Origin: Methanohalophilus euhalobius
Lineage (GTDB): Archaea > Halobacteriota > Methanosarcinia > Methanosarcinales > Methanosarcinaceae
Length of the DNA: 64,000 nt
Assembly (NCBI RefSeq): GCF_900215215.1
Contig: NZ_OBDR01000009.1
Coordinates: forward strand, 1 to 64,000
Direction: 5' to 3'
A model generated the notes under the pieces. That model saw nothing but the letters and a program-made list of their open reading frames with translations. It was not told the DNA's origin and did no database searches. This document shows, piece after piece, positions 28,880 through 45,768 of this stretch (its first letter is position 1; every line of letters begins with the position of its first letter). The position numbers were made by a program, and so were the translations under genes.

Positions 28880-29599
28880 ATGATCGGTATCTCTTCGTTT
28901 GCTTATCACGACTTATCGCTTGGTGAAGCTTTGCAAAATATTGAACACGTTGTCAATTGTGCAGAAATCTTTTCTGAAGGAAGACATGACCTATTCAGGC
29001 AGGATGAAATCGCCTTTTCCTATGACTTGAAATATACGGTTCATGCTCCCAGTACAGACCTCAATCTTGCAAGCATTCGTGAACCTATAAGGAATGCAGC
29101 TCTCCAACTTGTGGAAGACATGGCAGGTGTTTGCAATGAAATTGATGCTGAAGTCATGGTTGTCCATCCCGGTTATTTCCCCTTTGCTTATGATAGGGAT
29201 TTTGCATTTAATGCATTCCAAAAATCGTTGCCTGTATTGGAAAGGATTGGTGAGGATGCCGGTGTGCGGATATGTGTGGAAAATATGCCCAAATGGGAAT
29301 GTTTCCTTTTCAGAAAACCGGATTTTGAGATAGGGGCAAATGATTTTGTACTGGATATTGGTCATGCCAACACAATGGGCAATCTGGAGGCATTTCTTGA
29401 ACGTGAGATTTCCCATTTTCATATTCATGATAACCACGGGGATAACGATGAACATTTGCCCCCTGGTGAGGGAAACATTGATTTTTCGGCCATACAGGGA
29501 TTACTCCGCCAAAACAATTCTATTAAGATAATTGAGAATAAATCAGCTGAAGATGCCCTTCAGAGTATTTCTGCTCTGAAAAATATGGGTATCAAATGA
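28880..29599 (+). CDS. Sugar phosphate isomerase/epimerase-like TIM-barrel protein
   Basis: A 239-residue protein of the xylose isomerase-like / AP endonuclease 2 fold. Expected metal ligands are seen in YTVHAPSTD, MVVHPGYF, CVENMP, LDIGHAN and HIHDNHGDNDEHLPPGEG. The final glutamate would come from KIIENKSAEDAL. Reaction and substrate are unknown. Because it follows two sugar kinases it could act on a sugar phosphate, but 141 bases separate it from them and a DNA-repair role is not excluded. The ATG is preceded by AGGAG at a slightly long distance. Confidence 0.75.
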   Translation: MIGISSFAYHDLSLGEALQNIEHVVNCAEIFSEGRHDLFRQDEIAFSYDLKYTVHAPSTDLNLASIREPIRNAALQLVEDMAGVCNEIDAEVMVVHPGYFPFAYDRDFAFNAFQKSLPVLERIGEDAGVRICVENMPKWECFLFRKPDFEIGANDFVLDIGHANTMGNLEAFLEREISHFHIHDNHGDNDEHLPPGEGNIDFSAIQGLLRQNNSIKIIENKSAEDALQSISALKNMGIK

Positions 29600-29625: not shown

Positions 29626-29645
29626 ACAATTCACTTGATTTGTAT

Positions 29646-30161
29646 ATGAGTTCTATGGGATGCAGGATATTTCATGCACTTGGTAGTGAAACCCGGATTA
29701 AAATACTGGAACTCTTAAGCAGCAACGAAATGCATATATCTGAAATTGCCCGGGAACTGGATATATCAGTATCGGTAGTTTCCAAGCATGTAAAGGTGCT
29801 TGAAGAATCAGAACTCCTTGAGAGACATATTTTCGGAAAATCCCATGTATTAAAACCCAACAGGAAAAATATTCATCTGGCTGTTGATTCGTTTGCTCCC
29901 ACCAGGCATGTGGAAGTCGAGAAAGGTGCTTGCCTTATGGAAGCCCTGCGCAATGTGGCAGATATTGATGTCAGGAAAAAGGGAGATAGGGAGATGATTG
30001 TTTCTACTGATGGGGAGGAAGGCCTTTATGTTTATGAGATTGATGGCCAATTGGGGGATAAAAACGTGAATGACTGCGTACTGGAAGATGATACAATCGT
30101 GGACTGGAAAAAGCTGGAACCTATCACAAGGATTCGGCTTGACATTCACGTCAGGGAATGA
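29646..30161 (+). CDS. ArsR-family regulator with extra C-terminal domain
   Basis: A 171-residue DNA-binding protein. Residues ~5-75 form a typical ArsR winged helix (CRIFHALGSETRIKILELL, ISEIARELDISVSVVSKHV). The C-terminal half (MIVSTDGEEGLYVYEIDGQL, NDCVLEDDTIVDWKKLEPI) resembles a small ubiquitin-like/DUF4430 sandwich as seen in some Methanosarcina regulators; that is inference. No metal-binding cysteine pair of the ArsR type is evident. It lies 69 bases before the radical-SAM/MutS group on the same strand, with a promoter between them, so it might control those genes. Confidence 0.75.
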   Translation: MSSMGCRIFHALGSETRIKILELLSSNEMHISEIARELDISVSVVSKHVKVLEESELLERHIFGKSHVLKPNRKNIHLAVDSFAPTRHVEVEKGACLMEALRNVADIDVRKKGDREMIVSTDGEEGLYVYEIDGQLGDKNVNDCVLEDDTIVDWKKLEPITRIRLDIHVRE

Positions 30162-30200
30162 AGGTGCCCAACGAATACTTTCAATCCACTTTCTTGTCTC

Positions 30201-30208
30201 TTATATAG
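30201..30208 (+). promoter_or_regulatory. TATA box of the radical-SAM/DUF4130/MutS operon
   Basis: TTATATAG is centred about 26 bases before ATG 30231. No Shine-Dalgarno precedes that ATG, so the operon mRNA probably starts at or within a base or two of the start codon. Confidence 0.6.
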
Positions 30209-30230: not shown

Positions 30231-31367
30231 ATGAGTATTCCTTCAGACGGCTATCATTTCACTTTGCATGAGAGGATGCGATACCTTTCCTCGGGTACAA
30301 AGTATGACAGCTGTAATCAGAGTGCAGTATGCCACGCTTTCGGGCCAGACGGGCGCTGCATTCAATTATACAAGACATTACTGACCAACTACTGTGCCGG
30401 AGAATGTACCTATTGTCCTAATCGCTGTCACAGGGATGTGCGCAGGGTTTCCCTGTCCCCGGAAGAGATTGTGAAAATTACCTGGGATTTTTACAGGAAA
30501 AATGCGATCGAAGGCCTTTTCCTTTCCTCCGGTGTTATCGGGGATCCTGAAACAACAACTGAAAAACAGCTTCATGTGGCCCGGCTCTTGAGAAATCAGG
30601 GGTTTAATGGTTATATCCACCTTCGGCTCATGCCCGGTACACCTTTCCATTTGCTGCAGGAGGTAGCCGGGGTTGCCAACAAATTCGGGGTAAATGCAGA
30701 AACAACGGGTTCTGTGAACTATTCGGAAATCTGTCCCAATTTCGATTACAAAAATGATGTCCTTCAGCGTTTGAACTGGATCTGCAAATTGATCAGGAAA
30801 CAGAGGAAATTGCACAGATATGATCATAAGATCATAGGTGCCAACGATACCCAGTTTGTTGTGGGTGCCCTTGACGAACCCGACAGGGATATTGTGAATA
30901 CCGTGCATGATTTCATGGAAAAATACCAGTTGCGCAGACCTTATTTTATGAGTTTTGACCCGGTACCTGATACTCCGCTTGAGAATGGTTCAACATCTCC
31001 AAAATGGAGGGAACAGAGGCTCTATCAGGTATCTTATCTTTTGAAAGATTATGGCCTGGATTCCGGGCATATTGATCAAATCTATAATGACGATGGTTTT
31101 CTTTTGAATGATGATCCTAAACTTGAACTTGCCCGGGTCAACCCGGAAATGTTTCCGGTAGAAATAAACAGCGCCGATTATTCTTCCCTGCTCAGGGTGC
31201 CGGGTATAGGGCCTATAAGTGCTTCCCGTATCCTGAGATCCAGGCCAATTTATGGGGAGGATGAACTTGCACGTATGGGTGTTGTTATAGGTCGTGCACG
31301 CCCCTTTATCAAAATTGGTGGTTCCGGGCAAACTAACCTTATACAGTTTGCAGGAGAATGCACATGA
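30231..31367 (+). CDS. Putative DNA modification/repair radical-SAM protein with HhH tail
   Basis: A 378-residue radical-SAM protein of the type (TIGR03916-like) that is encoded beside DUF4130 proteins. The cluster cysteines are C55-x3-C59-x2-C62 in CAGECTYCPNRC. Further conserved-looking blocks are LSSGVIGDPETTTEKQL, GYIHLRLMPGTP and NAETTGSVNYSEICP. Residues ~310-355 form a helix-hairpin-helix (SLLRVPGIGPISASRIL), a nonspecific DNA-binding element. The stop overlaps the DUF4130 start (ATGA). The family is linked to DNA metabolism by context, but the reaction has not been established to my knowledge. It looks intact. Confidence 0.88.
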   Translation: MSIPSDGYHFTLHERMRYLSSGTKYDSCNQSAVCHAFGPDGRCIQLYKTLLTNYCAGECTYCPNRCHRDVRRVSLSPEEIVKITWDFYRKNAIEGLFLSSGVIGDPETTTEKQLHVARLLRNQGFNGYIHLRLMPGTPFHLLQEVAGVANKFGVNAETTGSVNYSEICPNFDYKNDVLQRLNWICKLIRKQRKLHRYDHKIIGANDTQFVVGALDEPDRDIVNTVHDFMEKYQLRRPYFMSFDPVPDTPLENGSTSPKWREQRLYQVSYLLKDYGLDSGHIDQIYNDDGFLLNDDPKLELARVNPEMFPVEINSADYSSLLRVPGIGPISASRILRSRPIYGEDELARMGVVIGRARPFIKIGGSGQTNLIQFAGECT

Positions 31368-32218
31368 TTATTCTTTTTAAGGCCACTGTAACAGGTGTCT
31401 TACTGGCCTGTCTGGAATTGAGGCAACGGCCAGAGGCAGATCTGGTTTTTGCCTGTGATCCCAAAGAAGGGGAAACGAAATTGAAAATGACCTACCCGAC
31501 AGCTGAAATAATTCGGGTTGGATTCAATAGTAAGGTTGATAATCAGCAGTTGGCCAAAAGAGTTTTTCCCGATGGGTGGCACAGAATAACCAATTTTGAT
31601 TCCCCTCCATTGAATTATATAGAATTGGTGCTCAGGCACAGAAAATGCAATCCTGCAGAGCTTGTGAGACTATTGCATGGGTGTGAAGGGGAGGTGGATG
31701 GTCTTTATTGTGGTAAAGAAAGACTTTACAAGCGATATTACCGGTACATGTGTGAGGTTAAAAACAATTATCACAGACTTTGCATGTTTGTGCGGCCAGT
31801 TTGCGGAGATACAGTCCTTTATGTAAATGTAACTCCCAAAAACCATGTGTCTGATATGCTTTGCAGGTGGCTTGCAGTACGCAATCCAGATAGGGCGGTA
31901 ATTGTTGTTGGTGGAAAGTTTGCTTATGTATGCAATGGTGAAATCCTGAAGATGCAGCATTTCCTGAAAACATCTGTGGATTCAATACAACATTTGATTC
32001 CTTCTGAAGATTCTGCTAATCCGGAAGAATTGTGGGATACCTATTACAAAAGCCAGATGATAGACAACAGACGTAACCATTCGCTTTCAAAAAGATTACA
32101 GCCCCGCGGCGATTCCGGCTATAGTACAATGTCTAAAAAAGATCGGTATTTTGTAGAACGGGGTATTCCCACATCTACATTACTTGATTTTGTGAATGAG
32201 AAACAAGGTGGTCAATAA
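31364..32218 (+). CDS. DUF4130 (TIGR03915-like) protein, free-standing
   Basis: A 284-residue partner of the radical-SAM protein. In many bacteria this domain is fused to a uracil-DNA glycosylase; here the protein ends after the DUF4130 region and a short tail (SKKDRYFVERGIPTSTLLDFV), with no glycosylase domain. Recognisable blocks are FKATVTGVLLACLEL, ELVRLLHGCEGEVDGLYCG, FVRPVCGDTVLYVNVTPKNH and VDSIQHLIPSEDSANPEELW. ATG 31364 lies seven bases after GGAG and overlaps the upstream stop; ATG 31358 is too close to that site. The next start is one base after its stop. Function unknown. Confidence 0.85.
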   Translation: MIILFKATVTGVLLACLELRQRPEADLVFACDPKEGETKLKMTYPTAEIIRVGFNSKVDNQQLAKRVFPDGWHRITNFDSPPLNYIELVLRHRKCNPAELVRLLHGCEGEVDGLYCGKERLYKRYYRYMCEVKNNYHRLCMFVRPVCGDTVLYVNVTPKNHVSDMLCRWLAVRNPDRAVIVVGGKFAYVCNGEILKMQHFLKTSVDSIQHLIPSEDSANPEELWDTYYKSQMIDNRRNHSLSKRLQPRGDSGYSTMSKKDRYFVERGIPTSTLLDFVNEKQGGQ

Positions 32219-32219
32219 T

Positions 32220-34322
32220 ATGCAGTCACTGGTTGATGCTCCACGTATAGGAGAAAAAATGGCACAGCGCTTTATATCTCATTTTGGATGTGAAGAGGAT
32301 GCCATGGCGGCAATTCTCAGAGGGGATATAGCCGGTATATCGGAGATCGAAGGAGTAGGTAGAAGGTATGCCATATCCCTTGTACACGATGTGAGGTCTA
32401 CACAGGATGGTATTGATATCTCCTCTTTTTTGAAAACCCGGGATTCAGTCGATATTTATGAACGGGTAATCGATTCTATCAAAAATTATGCTTCTACCCC
32501 TTATGCAAGGGATAAGTTGCACACTTATATCCCATATCCTTCAAGCAGGAAAGACCTTATTGACATAAACCGGGACTGGGTTGAAAACCATATGGAATAC
32601 CTCTCCATGCTCGATGATATGGATAGGATTTCAGCAAGTCTTTCCAGAATAGAACCCCTGAAAAACTCTCCTTCAATTCCCCGGATCAGGGATAGGGTAA
32701 TTGTCACTTCAAATACAGATGATTACAGCACTTTAAAGGAAAAATATGGTAAAAGCATTGAGGTCCAGCTGGTGGAAGATCCTCTGGAATTTGCAGATGT
32801 TGCACGCAGTTATCCCCATGTAATTGCCATAGGAGAACCCTTCCTGGAATATGATTTTCCAGAGGATACGAATCCTGAAATAATAACAAATGCCCGGGAA
32901 ATTGAGGAATGGCATATTTTACCCGAAAAACAGATTTCGTTTTTTGCTTTCAATCATGAACGAATAATGAATGCATTGGATCTTGCAATTGCACTGGATA
33001 AAGCAGGCATACCTCCAGTAGTCAATGCGGATATTTCGGCTCTTAGCAATCTCATGGCTGCCATTAATCCTGAAGGAAATATTGTTGAAGGCAGGGATGG
33101 GGAAATAGACCGCTTACATCATATTCTGGATAATGTGGATTCGGAACTTACAAAATATGTAGACCAGTGCAACCAGGAAATAAATGATCTCCTCCAAAAA
33201 AGTAGTATTACACTCAGCGGGAATGATATGTTGGGTGTTATCAGGGATGAGATGGAGTTAAAGGATATTCTTTCACGCAATATATCGGCATCTTTCAGCC
33301 AGATAATTAATGATGCCAGAAAAGAATTCATTGAAACCCTTTCAATGAAGCAAAATGAATCTCTATTAGTGGATTATTTTTTCCCCTCTGAACTTTGTTA
33401 TCCTGTAGAAGCCGACATGTCCCAGTTACAAAAATTCAAAGAACAGATCAAACAGCAGATATTCCGCAGGGAAGTTACTCATAAAAGGAATATTGCATAT
33501 GAGCTACACGAATTCAGGCAACCCCTGAAACAACTTGTTATGAGGTTACTTGATCTGGATGTGGGGTTGGCAGTGGCCCGTTTTGGTCATTCTCTGCAGA
33601 TGCAACTTGCCGGCTTTGAAGATGAATGTGGTATGGGTCTCAAGAATGGAAAAAATATTTTCCTTTGTGAAAAGGGTGTTGCTGTGGAACCTATAGATTA
33701 TTCTCTGGGCTCGATCATGTCTCCTTCGCAGGTTCCCACTTCTTCCGTAGTTCTTTTAAGTGGTGTGAATTCCGGAGGAAAAACATCCATGCTGGAGTTA
33801 GTGGCTCAATGTACAATTCTTTCCCACATTGGTTTCCCTGTGCCGGCAGATGAATTGAAGATCGGGCCGATTGATAGTTTGTATTATTTCAGCAAATCCA
33901 GGGGCACTCTTGATGCGGGGGCATTTGAAACTACCTTACGCTCATTTTCAGCTTTGAGAGGGGCGGGATCCAAACTTGTGCTTGTCGATGAACTTGAATC
34001 CATCACCGAACCCGGAGCTTCTGCAAAAATCATAGCCGGTATCCTTGAAACCCTTTCTGAAGAATCCAATACAATGGCTATTTTTGTTTCCCATCTTGCC
34101 GACCAGATACTGGAAAATACCGACGCTTCCATCAGAGTGGATGGAATTGAAGCAAAAGGACTTGATAATGAATTGAACCTGATTGTTGATCGCAATCCGA
34201 TTTATAATCATATTGCAAAGAGTACTCCGGAATTAATCGTGGAGCGTCTTTTCAGAAGCGGAGGGGAAGTTGAAAGGGAGTTTTACAGACGTTTGAAAAA
34301 TAAATTCGAAAAAGGATGCTAA
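32220..34322 (+). CDS. MutS-like ATPase with N-terminal helix-hairpin-helix
   Basis: A 700-residue protein. Residues 1-55 carry two HhH-like hairpins (VDAPRIGEKMAQRFISHF, ISEIEGVGRRYAISLVHDV). A long helical lever region with coiled-coil character follows (~280-430). The MutS ATPase has Walker A GVNSGGKTS (515-523) and Walker B VLVDELE (D590, E591). The mismatch-reading domain I of MutS1 and the Smr nuclease of MutS2 are absent, so canonical mismatch repair is unlikely. ATG 32220 follows AAGGTGG; ATG 32196 lies inside the upstream gene. It probably works on DNA structures handled with the two preceding proteins. Its stop abuts convergent hisB. Confidence 0.88.
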   Translation: MQSLVDAPRIGEKMAQRFISHFGCEEDAMAAILRGDIAGISEIEGVGRRYAISLVHDVRSTQDGIDISSFLKTRDSVDIYERVIDSIKNYASTPYARDKLHTYIPYPSSRKDLIDINRDWVENHMEYLSMLDDMDRISASLSRIEPLKNSPSIPRIRDRVIVTSNTDDYSTLKEKYGKSIEVQLVEDPLEFADVARSYPHVIAIGEPFLEYDFPEDTNPEIITNAREIEEWHILPEKQISFFAFNHERIMNALDLAIALDKAGIPPVVNADISALSNLMAAINPEGNIVEGRDGEIDRLHHILDNVDSELTKYVDQCNQEINDLLQKSSITLSGNDMLGVIRDEMELKDILSRNISASFSQIINDARKEFIETLSMKQNESLLVDYFFPSELCYPVEADMSQLQKFKEQIKQQIFRREVTHKRNIAYELHEFRQPLKQLVMRLLDLDVGLAVARFGHSLQMQLAGFEDECGMGLKNGKNIFLCEKGVAVEPIDYSLGSIMSPSQVPTSSVVLLSGVNSGGKTSMLELVAQCTILSHIGFPVPADELKIGPIDSLYYFSKSRGTLDAGAFETTLRSFSALRGAGSKLVLVDELESITEPGASAKIIAGILETLSEESNTMAIFVSHLADQILENTDASIRVDGIEAKGLDNELNLIVDRNPIYNHIAKSTPELIVERLFRSGGEVEREFYRRLKNKFEKGC

Positions 34323-44271: not shown

Positions 44272-44509
44272 ATGAATAACAATCTGGATAAGGCCAGTCA
44301 TTCTGTATATTTACTACAATATTATTTTGTACAAAGTGTAGAATATAGAAGAGATATGCTGGTGAATCCTCTTGTAGTTGATTGTTTGAAAAAACCGTAT
44401 ATAATGTAAGTGCAAAGATGCATTCTGGATAAGATCATATTTTTTGGTTACAACTGGACAGGTTACACTGGATGTTTTGATAAATTATGTTGATAATCAG
44501 GGCAAATAA
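44272..44509 (+). pseudogene. tnpA: Truncated IS200-type transposase tnpA (Y1 HUH)
   Basis: The first 45 codons (44272-44409) encode LDKASHSVYLLQYYFVQSVE and RRDMLVNPLVVD, matching the TnpA N-terminus, then stop. In another frame the bases before tnpB encode the usual C-terminus ([20 protein letters not shown]) with its TAA at 44507-44509 overlapping the tnpB ATG. The central region with the HUH histidines and catalytic tyrosine helix is missing, so the enzyme is dead. An internal deletion with frameshift explains the pattern. Confidence 0.82.
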
Positions 44510-45768
44510 TGCAATTAACAAAGAAATACAAAATTCATCCAACTGAATTACAAAAGAATATGCTTTGGGAGTTATCCAATGCATGTACATCTCTTTATAA
44601 TATTGCATTATCTGAAAGAAAAGACACATGGAAAAATGATAAAAAATCCATTTCATATAAAAAACAACAGAATGATTTACCACAAATTAAAAAAGAGAAT
44701 CCTGATATAAATATTCTTTATTCTAAATCATGCCAGATGGTTTTGCGTAAATTAGATGCTAATTACAAATCATTCTTTGGACTTCACAAAAATGGAGACA
44801 AAAAAGCAAGAACTCCACGATTTAGAAGTCGTAAATACTTTTTTACAATAACATATAATCAGAGTGGTTTCAAAGTAATTGGAAATAGTATTAGATTTTC
44901 ACATAAAATGAATGATGAAGATTTGATAATTGATATTGAACAAGATATATCAAATTTGAAAATCAAACAAATCGAAATATTCAATGAAGATAAAAAGGGT
45001 AATGGAGATTTCTTTGTCACGATTACGTATGAACCTGAAATCAATGTGCCTTATGTTCAAAATAATCATTTTCAAGCAATTGATTTAGGGATTACCAAAA
45101 CGATTACTGCAATAAATGATAAAGGAAAATTTTTTGAAATAAACAATCCACGATATGATTTATATTGGGATTCTAAAATCAGTGCAGTTCAATCAAGGCG
45201 TGACCATTGCAAAAAATACAGTAAAAAATGGCATCGATTAAACAAAACTATTCGTACTATGGTAAGAAGGAAAAATAATCAGATAAAAGATTGGCAACAC
45301 AAATTATCTAAATCAATGGTAGAGAATACAAGAGCCAATACAATTATTGCAGGTAAACTCCACGTTAAAAATATGGGTAAATCGAAAAACAAAACGTTGA
45401 ATCGTTCTACACAAAATAATGGTTATTTATCACGTTTCATCGAATTTCTCACCTATAAAGCAGAACTTATAGGTAAACAAGTAGTTAAAATTGATGAAAG
45501 ATATACGTCAAAAACATGTTATGTTTGTGGAAAACAACATAAGATGCCATTATATAGACGTGATATGACATGTGATTGTGGTAACGTTATTGATAGAGAT
45601 AGAAACAGTGCTATCAATATCATGATACGTTACCTATCACAAAATGCCAATTGGACAGGCTATGAGCATTTTGCTCATAATCTACGACAAACAGGGTTAT
45701 TGACATTTGATGTATCCCAAATACATCCAATGAATGACATAACAACTCGTAGGAATCTCCATGCGTAA
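44509..45768 (+). CDS. tnpB: TnpB, RNA-guided nuclease-family protein of IS605/IS1341 type
   Basis: A 419-residue TnpB of normal length. RuvC-I aspartate is D192 in AIDLGITKT. RuvC-III aspartates are in DRDRNSAINI (D362, D364). The zinc ribbon is CYVCGKQ...CDCG. At the canonical RuvC-II glutamate (the E of EDLxVxxM) this protein has G282 in IIAGKLHVKNM. A glutamate at E330, just before TSKTC, may substitute, as in TnpBs with a relocated catalytic residue; this is inference. TnpB proteins cut DNA guided by an RNA from the element's right end. Codon use is AT-rich and unlike the neighbours. The last codons lie in the right-end hairpin. Confidence 0.93.
   Translation: MQLTKKYKIHPTELQKNMLWELSNACTSLYNIALSERKDTWKNDKKSISYKKQQNDLPQIKKENPDINILYSKSCQMVLRKLDANYKSFFGLHKNGDKKARTPRFRSRKYFFTITYNQSGFKVIGNSIRFSHKMNDEDLIIDIEQDISNLKIKQIEIFNEDKKGNGDFFVTITYEPEINVPYVQNNHFQAIDLGITKTITAINDKGKFFEINNPRYDLYWDSKISAVQSRRDHCKKYSKKWHRLNKTIRTMVRRKNNQIKDWQHKLSKSMVENTRANTIIAGKLHVKNMGKSKNKTLNRSTQNNGYLSRFIEFLTYKAELIGKQVVKIDERYTSKTCYVCGKQHKMPLYRRDMTCDCGNVIDRDRNSAINIMIRYLSQNANWTGYEHFAHNLRQTGLLTFDVSQIHPMNDITTRRNLHA

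Follow-up and report, generated by a model that had tools for sequence, protein, structure and literature searches.

A radical SAM, DUF4130 and MutS5-type operon of Methanohalophilus euhalobius and its promoter element: a candidate member of a proposed SOS-like regulon in methanogens

The closest described relatives of the genes considered here form the bacterial TIGR03916-TIGR03915(-TIGR03914/UdgX) cassette (COG4277-COG1573), in which a gene for a radical S-adenosylmethionine (SAM) protein is followed directly by one for a DUF4130 protein. According to PMC8565304, the operon of uracil-DNA glycosylase (UDG) and COG4277 lies in the SOS regulons of Bacteroidetes, Verrucomicrobia and Alphaproteobacteria, and PMC3765255 calls DUF4130 a predicted mutagenesis-related enzyme tied to SplB-like radical SAM proteins. 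In the first 64,000 nucleotides of contig NZ_OBDR01000009.1 of the archaeon Methanohalophilus euhalobius, the whole of which we call the window, a radical SAM gene is likewise followed directly by a DUF4130/TIGR03915-like gene. Unlike the bacterial SOS cassette, the version in the window has no UDG, falls below both TIGRFAM cut-offs, is followed by a gene for a MutS5-type ATPase and is preceded by another promoter element.

Archaeal MutS5 is said in PMC11276520 to be a MutS-family ATPase that acts outside mismatch repair, and the Pyrococcus horikoshii protein is reported, as cited there, to bind Holliday junctions; Haloferax MutS5b was up-regulated alongside repair genes under perchlorate (PMC12175516). 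The product of the third gene of the operon is, as a MutS-family ATPase, a putative counterpart of the named proteins (Haloferax MutS5a and MutS5b, P. horikoshii MutS5), from which it differs in that its gene shares an operon with those of the radical SAM pair. The transcriptional damage response of most archaea is poorly known, and the worked example is that of the Sulfolobales. Induction by ultraviolet (UV) light in Sulfolobus requires a hexamer, A(N)TTTC, immediately before the transcription factor B recognition element and the TATA box; the upsE promoter has it as ACTTTC, and footprints place Orc1-2 on ANTTTC (PMC5817253, PMC9738581). The identical hexamer ACTTTC stands upstream of a TATA box before repair-related genes here; the element in methanogens is longer (ACTTTC(A/G)CNCCGC...) and has RadA, RPA, RecQ, DinB and UvrA among its putative targets. 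No damage motif or regulon of a methanogen was found among the papers listed in searches of open-access literature. We regard it as probable, short of firm, that the three genes of the window are one operon of a DNA-damage-type, SOS-like regulon. Its promoter signal also marks core DNA-repair genes of relatives, so the operon is probably part of an archaeal response equivalent to bacterial SOS.

The operon and the genes that share its promoter element

The three genes are consecutive on the + strand (Table 1). The sequence-only reading of this stretch had described them as tightly packed, and its account was exact: the ATGA at 31364-31367 is a four-base overlap of the radical SAM and DUF4130 genes, and one base (32219) separates the TAA of the DUF4130 gene from the ATG of the MutS5-type gene. 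For comparison we took the best 80 of 173 confirmed radical SAM relatives, 42 of them in Methanosarcinaceae-type loci (one labelled only Methanosarcinales) and 38 in others. The reading frames of the radical SAM and DUF4130 genes overlap, by 1-43 bases as called, in 39/39 callable loci among the 42; judged from these reading frames, the tight spacing is not due to chance.

When the regions upstream of the radical SAM genes are compared side by side, they have in common AATACTTTCACCCCGCTTGG, followed by a TATA box. In the window the element has an ACTTTC(A/G)C-N-CCGC-like form and, together with TATA, covers 30174-30205. The hexamer ACTTTC is present in 40/40 anchored radical SAM promoters of Methanosarcinaceae, a set that leaves out L163 (no anchor) and L199 (not scanned). 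The pattern ACTTTCANNNNRCNTN{3,14}TTATA has a single match in the 64-kb window (30177-30205), with 0.00 expected and none in 100 shuffles, and 107 matches in 40 Methanosarcinaceae genomes as against 18 for the reversed control (two-sided binomial p 1e-16). The TATA box lies about 30 bases before the radical SAM start codon, from which we infer a leaderless transcript or one with a very short leader.

The genes behind these matches were read from 60 Methanosarcinaceae regions holding 61 distinct sites of the 107 matches; most sites preceding radical SAM genes and some sites in fragmented assemblies were left out. An open reading frame (ORF) of at least 80 aa within 400 bases follows 53 of the 61 sites, the remaining eight having none, and the products are RPA (9), RadA (6), XseA (5), RecQ (4), DinB (3), SbmC-like proteins (3), MutS5, a radical SAM protein, XerA-like, NurA and NucS-like (1 each) and 18 other or unknown proteins. 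Among the representatives checked, XseA, DinB, RPA, RadA and RecQ scored above the NCBIfam cut-offs and the SbmC-like and XerA-like proteins below them, while NurA and NucS_C were above the Pfam cut-offs. The SbmC/GyrI-like proteins, whose E. coli namesake SbmC is encoded by an SOS gene, follow the element in three genomes (L317, L319, L329). A Cys-rich Methanosarcina family of 121-137 aa also lies behind the element in two genomes (L353, L386).

Similar genes recur outside this family. In 29 genomes of Methanotrichaceae, the variant ACTTTCGCNCCGC has 113 matches versus 3 for the control. Our set there comprised 40 sites, some that were already placed before a radical SAM gene by their coordinates being left out, and an ORF was found at 29: RadA (8), RPA (3), radical SAM (2), Nre (1), a family of 168-170 aa (3), a family of 154 aa (2) and others (10). 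The 168-170-aa (L403, L411, L424) and 154-aa (L406, L414) families stand directly behind ACTTTCGCNCCGC, and two representatives had no Pfam match; they are candidates for new damage-response factors. The ACTTTCANNNNRCNTN pattern also precedes RPA in 4/4 Methanocellia genomes, UvrA in three genomes of family f24 (one Pfam-checked, the others 78-81% identical) and RadA in one genome of family f2. Among the ORFs beside the extra sites of the phylum and of genome G162, 8/19 matched no reference repair gene. Haloarchaeal matches, which in two genomes precede a gene judged by eye to resemble threonine dehydratase, were taken as chance. In two Methanocellia loci (L086, L124) a PolB gene near the radical SAM-DUF4130 pair has an ACTTTC element of its own, scoring 6.3 and 10.2 with the matrix described below.

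The same element connects MutS5 to the pair beyond their adjacency. A weight matrix of 18 positions was made from the radical SAM promoters of Methanosarcinaceae (maximum 32.1; two Methanohalophilus rows out of register), and it was used to score the 150-base upstream stretches of 65 distinct MutS5-like genes, 14 of which have a poorly placed start. Five of the 65 exceeded 10, namely four from Methanocellia (26.2, 22.4, 20.9, 16.6) and one from Methanosarcinaceae (28.1, genome G296, in which RPA, NurA and RadA also carry the element), and the best of the other 60 reached 2.2. MutS5 does not lie beside the pair in Methanocellia, and it carries the element there in 4/4 genomes; since both MutS5 and the pair bear the same element where they are unlinked, the relation between them appears to go further than their order on the chromosome. 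Across the window and 40 loci, 564 ORFs were scored and 15 exceeded 10: 11 radical SAM genes, 2 MutS5 genes, one PolB gene and one small ORF. Six of the 11 radical SAM hits come from the family of the matrix, and the other seven radical SAM and MutS5 hits from outside it. A test independent of the matrix gave a similar picture outside Methanosarcinaceae, where ACTTTC lies within 160 bases upstream of 18/34 radical SAM genes versus 7/421 of the remaining ORFs in those loci (Fisher p 1e-17), the next hexamer of the same composition reaching 5/34. Radical SAM relatives that have no DUF4130 partner (L097, L098, L101, L121) have ACTTTC-type elements upstream as well, so control by the element may predate the pairing.

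The three encoded proteins

The radical SAM protein matches PF04055 at 29.9 bits, just above the cut-off of 29.5. Its best NCBIfam match is TIGR03916 at 292.2 bits, which is under the curated cut-off of 343.5, a score reached by 0/196 Halobacteriota genomes, and the next profile is ThiH at 28.9 bits. It shows the features of the TIGR03916 type: a CxxxCxxC motif, a C-terminal helix-hairpin-helix (HhH) and an adjoining DUF4130 gene. The cysteines C55, C59 and C62 pointed out in the sequence-only reading are invariant across 15 aligned relatives. The HhH tail that it proposed is matched at residues 310-338, by PF12836 with 23.7 bits, under the Pfam cut-off of 27, and by the ComEA-related structure 2duy (E 5.6e-5), the sole solved structure matched by sequence. 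Radical SAM proteins from named Methanohalophilus genomes share 97% identity with it.

The DUF4130 protein matches PF13566 at 42.3 bits (gathering cut-off 27) and TIGR03915 at 35.7 bits, under the cut-off of 112.25. Pfam and NCBIfam profile scans detected no UDG domain in it, in agreement with what had been said of it earlier, and no solved structure was matched by its sequence. Its AlphaFold2 model, built from a 54-sequence alignment, has a mean predicted local distance difference test score (pLDDT) of 81.5 and a poor C-terminus. By VIA the model aligns with the PAP phosphatase 8a8k at Z 10.3 (205 residues, 4.8 A, spanning residues 1-216), with RecJ at Z 8.9-10.1 and with Cdc45 at Z 7-8, and the 44 best entries are of the DHH type as far as can be judged by their titles; Foldseek gave one hit at E <= 0.001, with TM-scores of 0.3-0.45. 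The model contains a predicted DHH-like N-domain of about residues 1-95 and a DHHA1-like domain, the two-domain fold of the DHH-DHHA1 phosphoesterases (RecJ, Cdc45, NrnA, PAP phosphatase). Unlike these enzymes, the DUF4130 protein of the window lacks the catalytic HxDxD and DHH motifs, as do the conserved columns of the alignment; it has no profile support for the fold, and DUF4130 forms of about 200 aa (Methanothrix, Thermoplasmata and others) are without the N-domain. With moderate confidence, the model suggests that DUF4130 is a degenerate, probably non-catalytic, nucleic-acid-binding version of a RecJ/Cdc45-like DHH-DHHA1 fold, which gives the family its first fold hypothesis. In one relative (L106, genome G002) the DUF4130 frame has a single in-frame TAA at codon 67, from decay or a sequencing error; the related Methanosalsum locus L165 is intact.

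The third protein matches the MutS_V ATPase profile PF00488 at 35.5 bits (cut-off 30.2), and a Pfam scan found no Smr or MutS_I match in it. In structural comparison by VIA, its AlphaFold2 model (mean pLDDT 84) reaches Z 22-26 with MutS and MutS2, and the alignments to E. coli MutS begin at residue 118 or later, leaving the mismatch-recognition domain uncovered. Profiles and model together point to the archaeal MutS5 type, with a MutS core and ATPase and with neither domain I nor Smr. This bears out the earlier description of a HhH-bearing MutS-family ATPase without a mismatch-recognition or Smr domain, with the proviso that the HhH is below its cut-off (HHH_5, 18.4 bits against 27) and is seen as helical pairs in the model. 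The window genome has one other MutS_V match, in an 895-aa frame. PADLOC models gave AbiLi at E 0.0036 as the best match of the ATPase and none for the other two proteins; with no meaningful match, a role in anti-phage defence was rejected.

Distribution, competing explanations and a possible mechanism

Among 196 Halobacteriota genomes, MutS5-type genes occur in 109 when counted at E 1e-40 or better (E 1e-3 gives 142, which includes ordinary MutS), DUF4130 in 24, and TIGR03916 (threshold E 1e-80) in exactly those genomes. Nineteen of them, all from the family of the window, have MutS5 immediately after DUF4130; four Methanocellia genomes and one Methanotrichaceae genome have it in another place, which in one of the five is about 12 kb away. 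The triad is present in 35/36 evaluable Methanosarcinaceae-type loci, the exception being L163, with no MutS5 reading frame within 340 bases after DUF4130. A MutS5 ORF was seen in 0/38 of the other loci, 32 of which extend 1.2 kb or more past the radical SAM gene. Relatives of MutS5 occur also in haloarchaea and in 60/61 genomes of the Methanofastidiosum phylum, which has DUF4130 in 3 (two above the cut-off). The 24 non-Methanosarcinaceae genomes of the named loci, 23 of them with a DUF4130 ORF, have MutS5 in 15 and not in 9, many of the assemblies being incomplete, and the pair occurs without MutS5 in at least 8 genomes.

The sequence-only reading had MutS taking the place of the glycosylase in a distinct archaeal system whose task would be to make, recognise or remove a modified base or crosslink. 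The tight triad of the Methanosarcinaceae would fit such an exchange, and so would the UdgX fusion found in Paracoccus. DUF4130 standing alone, however, is the usual form in the archaea sampled and is common without any MutS, and MutS5 is common without the pair. A DUF4130 ORF is present in 33/38 non-Methanosarcinaceae loci and none is long enough for a fusion; no UDG hit was obtained in any of the 80 loci; and two of the three bacterial loci examined (Pusillibacter, Parabacteroides) encode stand-alone TIGR03915 proteins. An intact DUF4130-glycosylase fusion elsewhere in the window genome (99.96% complete) was looked for, and the genome yielded one DUF4130, no fusion, and two UDG-family matches, each in a frame of its own (192 and 159 aa). 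The pair thus seems complete both without a glycosylase and without MutS5, and replacement of the glycosylase, rejected on this distribution, is very improbable. The finding of MutS5 adjacency in Methanosarcinaceae alone, which was the earlier reading's own test of lineage restriction, also went against it. Its DNA-repair setting held up, and so did a real link between MutS and the pair, through the element that they share in Methanocellia.

That link also bears on a rival account, in which the pair landed upstream of an old MutS5 gene in an ancestor of the Methanosarcinaceae and MutS5 has shared nothing with it except a transcript. Adjacency alone is weak evidence of a functional bond because the whole neighbourhood is conserved, with a gene that we presume to be hisB after the triad in 30/33 loci and an ArsR-type gene before it in 28/41 evaluable ones. 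MutS5 is moreover far commoner than DUF4130 and adjoins it in one family only, and genome G022 has ArsR and MutS5 adjacent with the pair absent. Against a mere passenger stand the element on MutS5 alone in G296 and in all four Methanocellia genomes, and three loci (L138, L140, L199) in which the triad persists with no hisB found next to it, ArsR being missing in the two of them that can be judged; we hold this account to be decidedly unlikely. The element could instead mark a replication or growth-phase regulon, an Orc1/Cdc6-type protein coupling expression to replication. Each S-phase-like round requires RPA, PolB and RadA, and two of these, RPA and RadA, head the list of targets; a Methanocellia PolB gene (PF03104) scores 10.2, and the proteins suspected as regulators belong to a replication family (PMC9738581). 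DinB, RecQ, UvrA, NurA, XseA, SbmC-like and Nre targets suit damage better, and the bacterial relatives of the pair are SOS-regulated according to PMC8565304; a replication regulon seems to us rather unlikely.

It is also conceivable that damaged DNA is not what the radical SAM protein modifies, the target being a tRNA, a cofactor or a base without damage, and that the genes are in the regulon for reasons of supply. ThiH is the next profile after TIGR03916, the substrate is not established in the literature examined, and HhH domains also occur in RNA-acting proteins. The HhH tail, the UdgX fusion partner and the bacterial SOS control (PMC8565304) speak for DNA damage instead, as do the repair genes that share the radical SAM promoter element, and we give a non-damage target a low probability.

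The SOS-like regulon, which we prefer to these alternatives, has several observations weighing against it. The window genome has only three pattern matches, which lie before the operon, before xseA and at a site without an ORF of at least 80 aa within 400 bases. Outside Methanosarcinaceae the pattern ACTTTCANNNNRCNTN{3,14}TTATA is not enriched in the phylum (32 versus 26 for the control), so that the case for other families rests on the genes hit and on the Methanotrichaceae variant. Because the matrix was made from the radical SAM promoters of one family, the radical SAM hits in Methanosarcinaceae are not independent of it. The element of the Methanocellia pair is clear in 2/4 genomes (18.9, 12.9) and degenerate in the other two (0.0, -9.1), in which ACTTTC or ATTTTC is still at the same place, and the MutS5 genes of Methanosarcina, Methanothrix, haloarchaea, the pair-less genus g3 and the Methanofastidiosum phylum were found without it. 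The spacing from element to TATA is about 10 bases longer here than in Sulfolobus. As to the fold of DUF4130, hhalign of its profiles against RecJ-like and small DHH alignments gave probabilities of less than 1%, like those of 48 unrelated control proteins, and no Pfam DHH or DHHA1 match was found up to E 10; a DHH assignment by sequence was rejected.

If the operon does belong to an SOS-like regulon, DNA damage would cause ACTTTC to be acted on by a regulator, for which a paralogue of Orc1/Cdc6 is a candidate by analogy with Sulfolobus, and the operon would be expressed. The radical SAM protein, with its HhH tail as a DNA anchor, could then carry out radical chemistry on a lesion or modified base, and the DUF4130 protein, with its predicted degenerate DHH-DHHA1 fold, could bind or present the nucleic-acid substrate. 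MutS5 may be an ATP-driven clamp on branched or stalled DNA, an idea that comes from the reports on P. horikoshii MutS5 as cited in PMC11276520, and it might bring or keep the pair at recombination intermediates or work alongside it. A wider proposal, which we put forward tentatively and consider possible at most, is a multi-family methanogen SOS-like regulon on ACTTTC(A/G)CNCCGC plus TATA whose core, and perhaps an Orc1/Cdc6-type regulator, is shared with Sulfolobales and is ancestral across both great archaeal branches, and which includes an oxygen-independent repair machine of radical SAM protein, degenerate DUF4130 and MutS5 clamp for lesions at forks that have stalled or are recombining. 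In bacteria and archaea alike the pair seems to be controlled by damage, through unrelated regulators, and the orphan radical SAM-DUF4130 pair, SOS-controlled in many bacteria, would thereby gain a second, independent tie to DNA damage. With the element on radA, RPA, recQ, dinB, uvrA and an operon of uncharacterised putative repair genes in genetically tractable methanogens, a euryarchaeal damage response would become directly testable.

Coordinates and neighbouring genes

Table 1. Features of the operon and its upstream region in the window
Feature	Position	Strand	Basis
ArsR-type winged helix-turn-helix gene	29640..30161	+	PF01022, 47 bits
Conserved promoter element AATACTTTCAATCCACTT, consensus AATACTTTCACCCCGCTT	30174..30191	+	pattern match, family promoters
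TATA box TTATATAG	30201..30208	+	sequence; kept across promoter set
Radical SAM protein, TIGR03916-like, 378 aa	30231..31367	+	profile matches, alignment
CxxxCxxC motif (C55, C59, C62)	30393..30416	+	invariant in 15 sequences
HhH motif of radical SAM protein, residues 310-338	31158..31244	+	PF12836 below cut-off; 2duy match
DUF4130/TIGR03915-like protein, 284 aa	31364..32218	+	PF13566; model, VIA
PF13566 core, residues 125-247 of DUF4130 protein	31736..32104	+	Pfam profile
MutS5-type ATPase, 700 aa	32220..34322	+	profiles, relatives, structure alignments
N-terminal HhH region of MutS5-type protein	32226..32381	+	HHH_5 below cut-off; helical pairs in model
Walker A GVNSGGKTS	33762..33788	+	invariant in 28 sequences
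Walker B region VDELES	33984..34001	+	conserved in 28 sequences

The ArsR-type gene is a conserved neighbour in many Methanosarcinaceae loci and is dispensable for the triad. It is unlikely to encode the regulator that acts on the element, because the element is present in Methanotrichaceae and Methanocellia loci in which no ArsR was seen beside the pair. Two genes upstream of the operon, at 28880-29599, lies a TIM-barrel gene (PF01261; best NCBIfam match CbiR-like, below cut-off) that adjoins ArsR in some relatives only. Further along the window, at 44509-45768, is an ORF resembling IS200/IS605-type OrfB/TnpB by eye, and a similar ORF in locus L381 has the pattern upstream.

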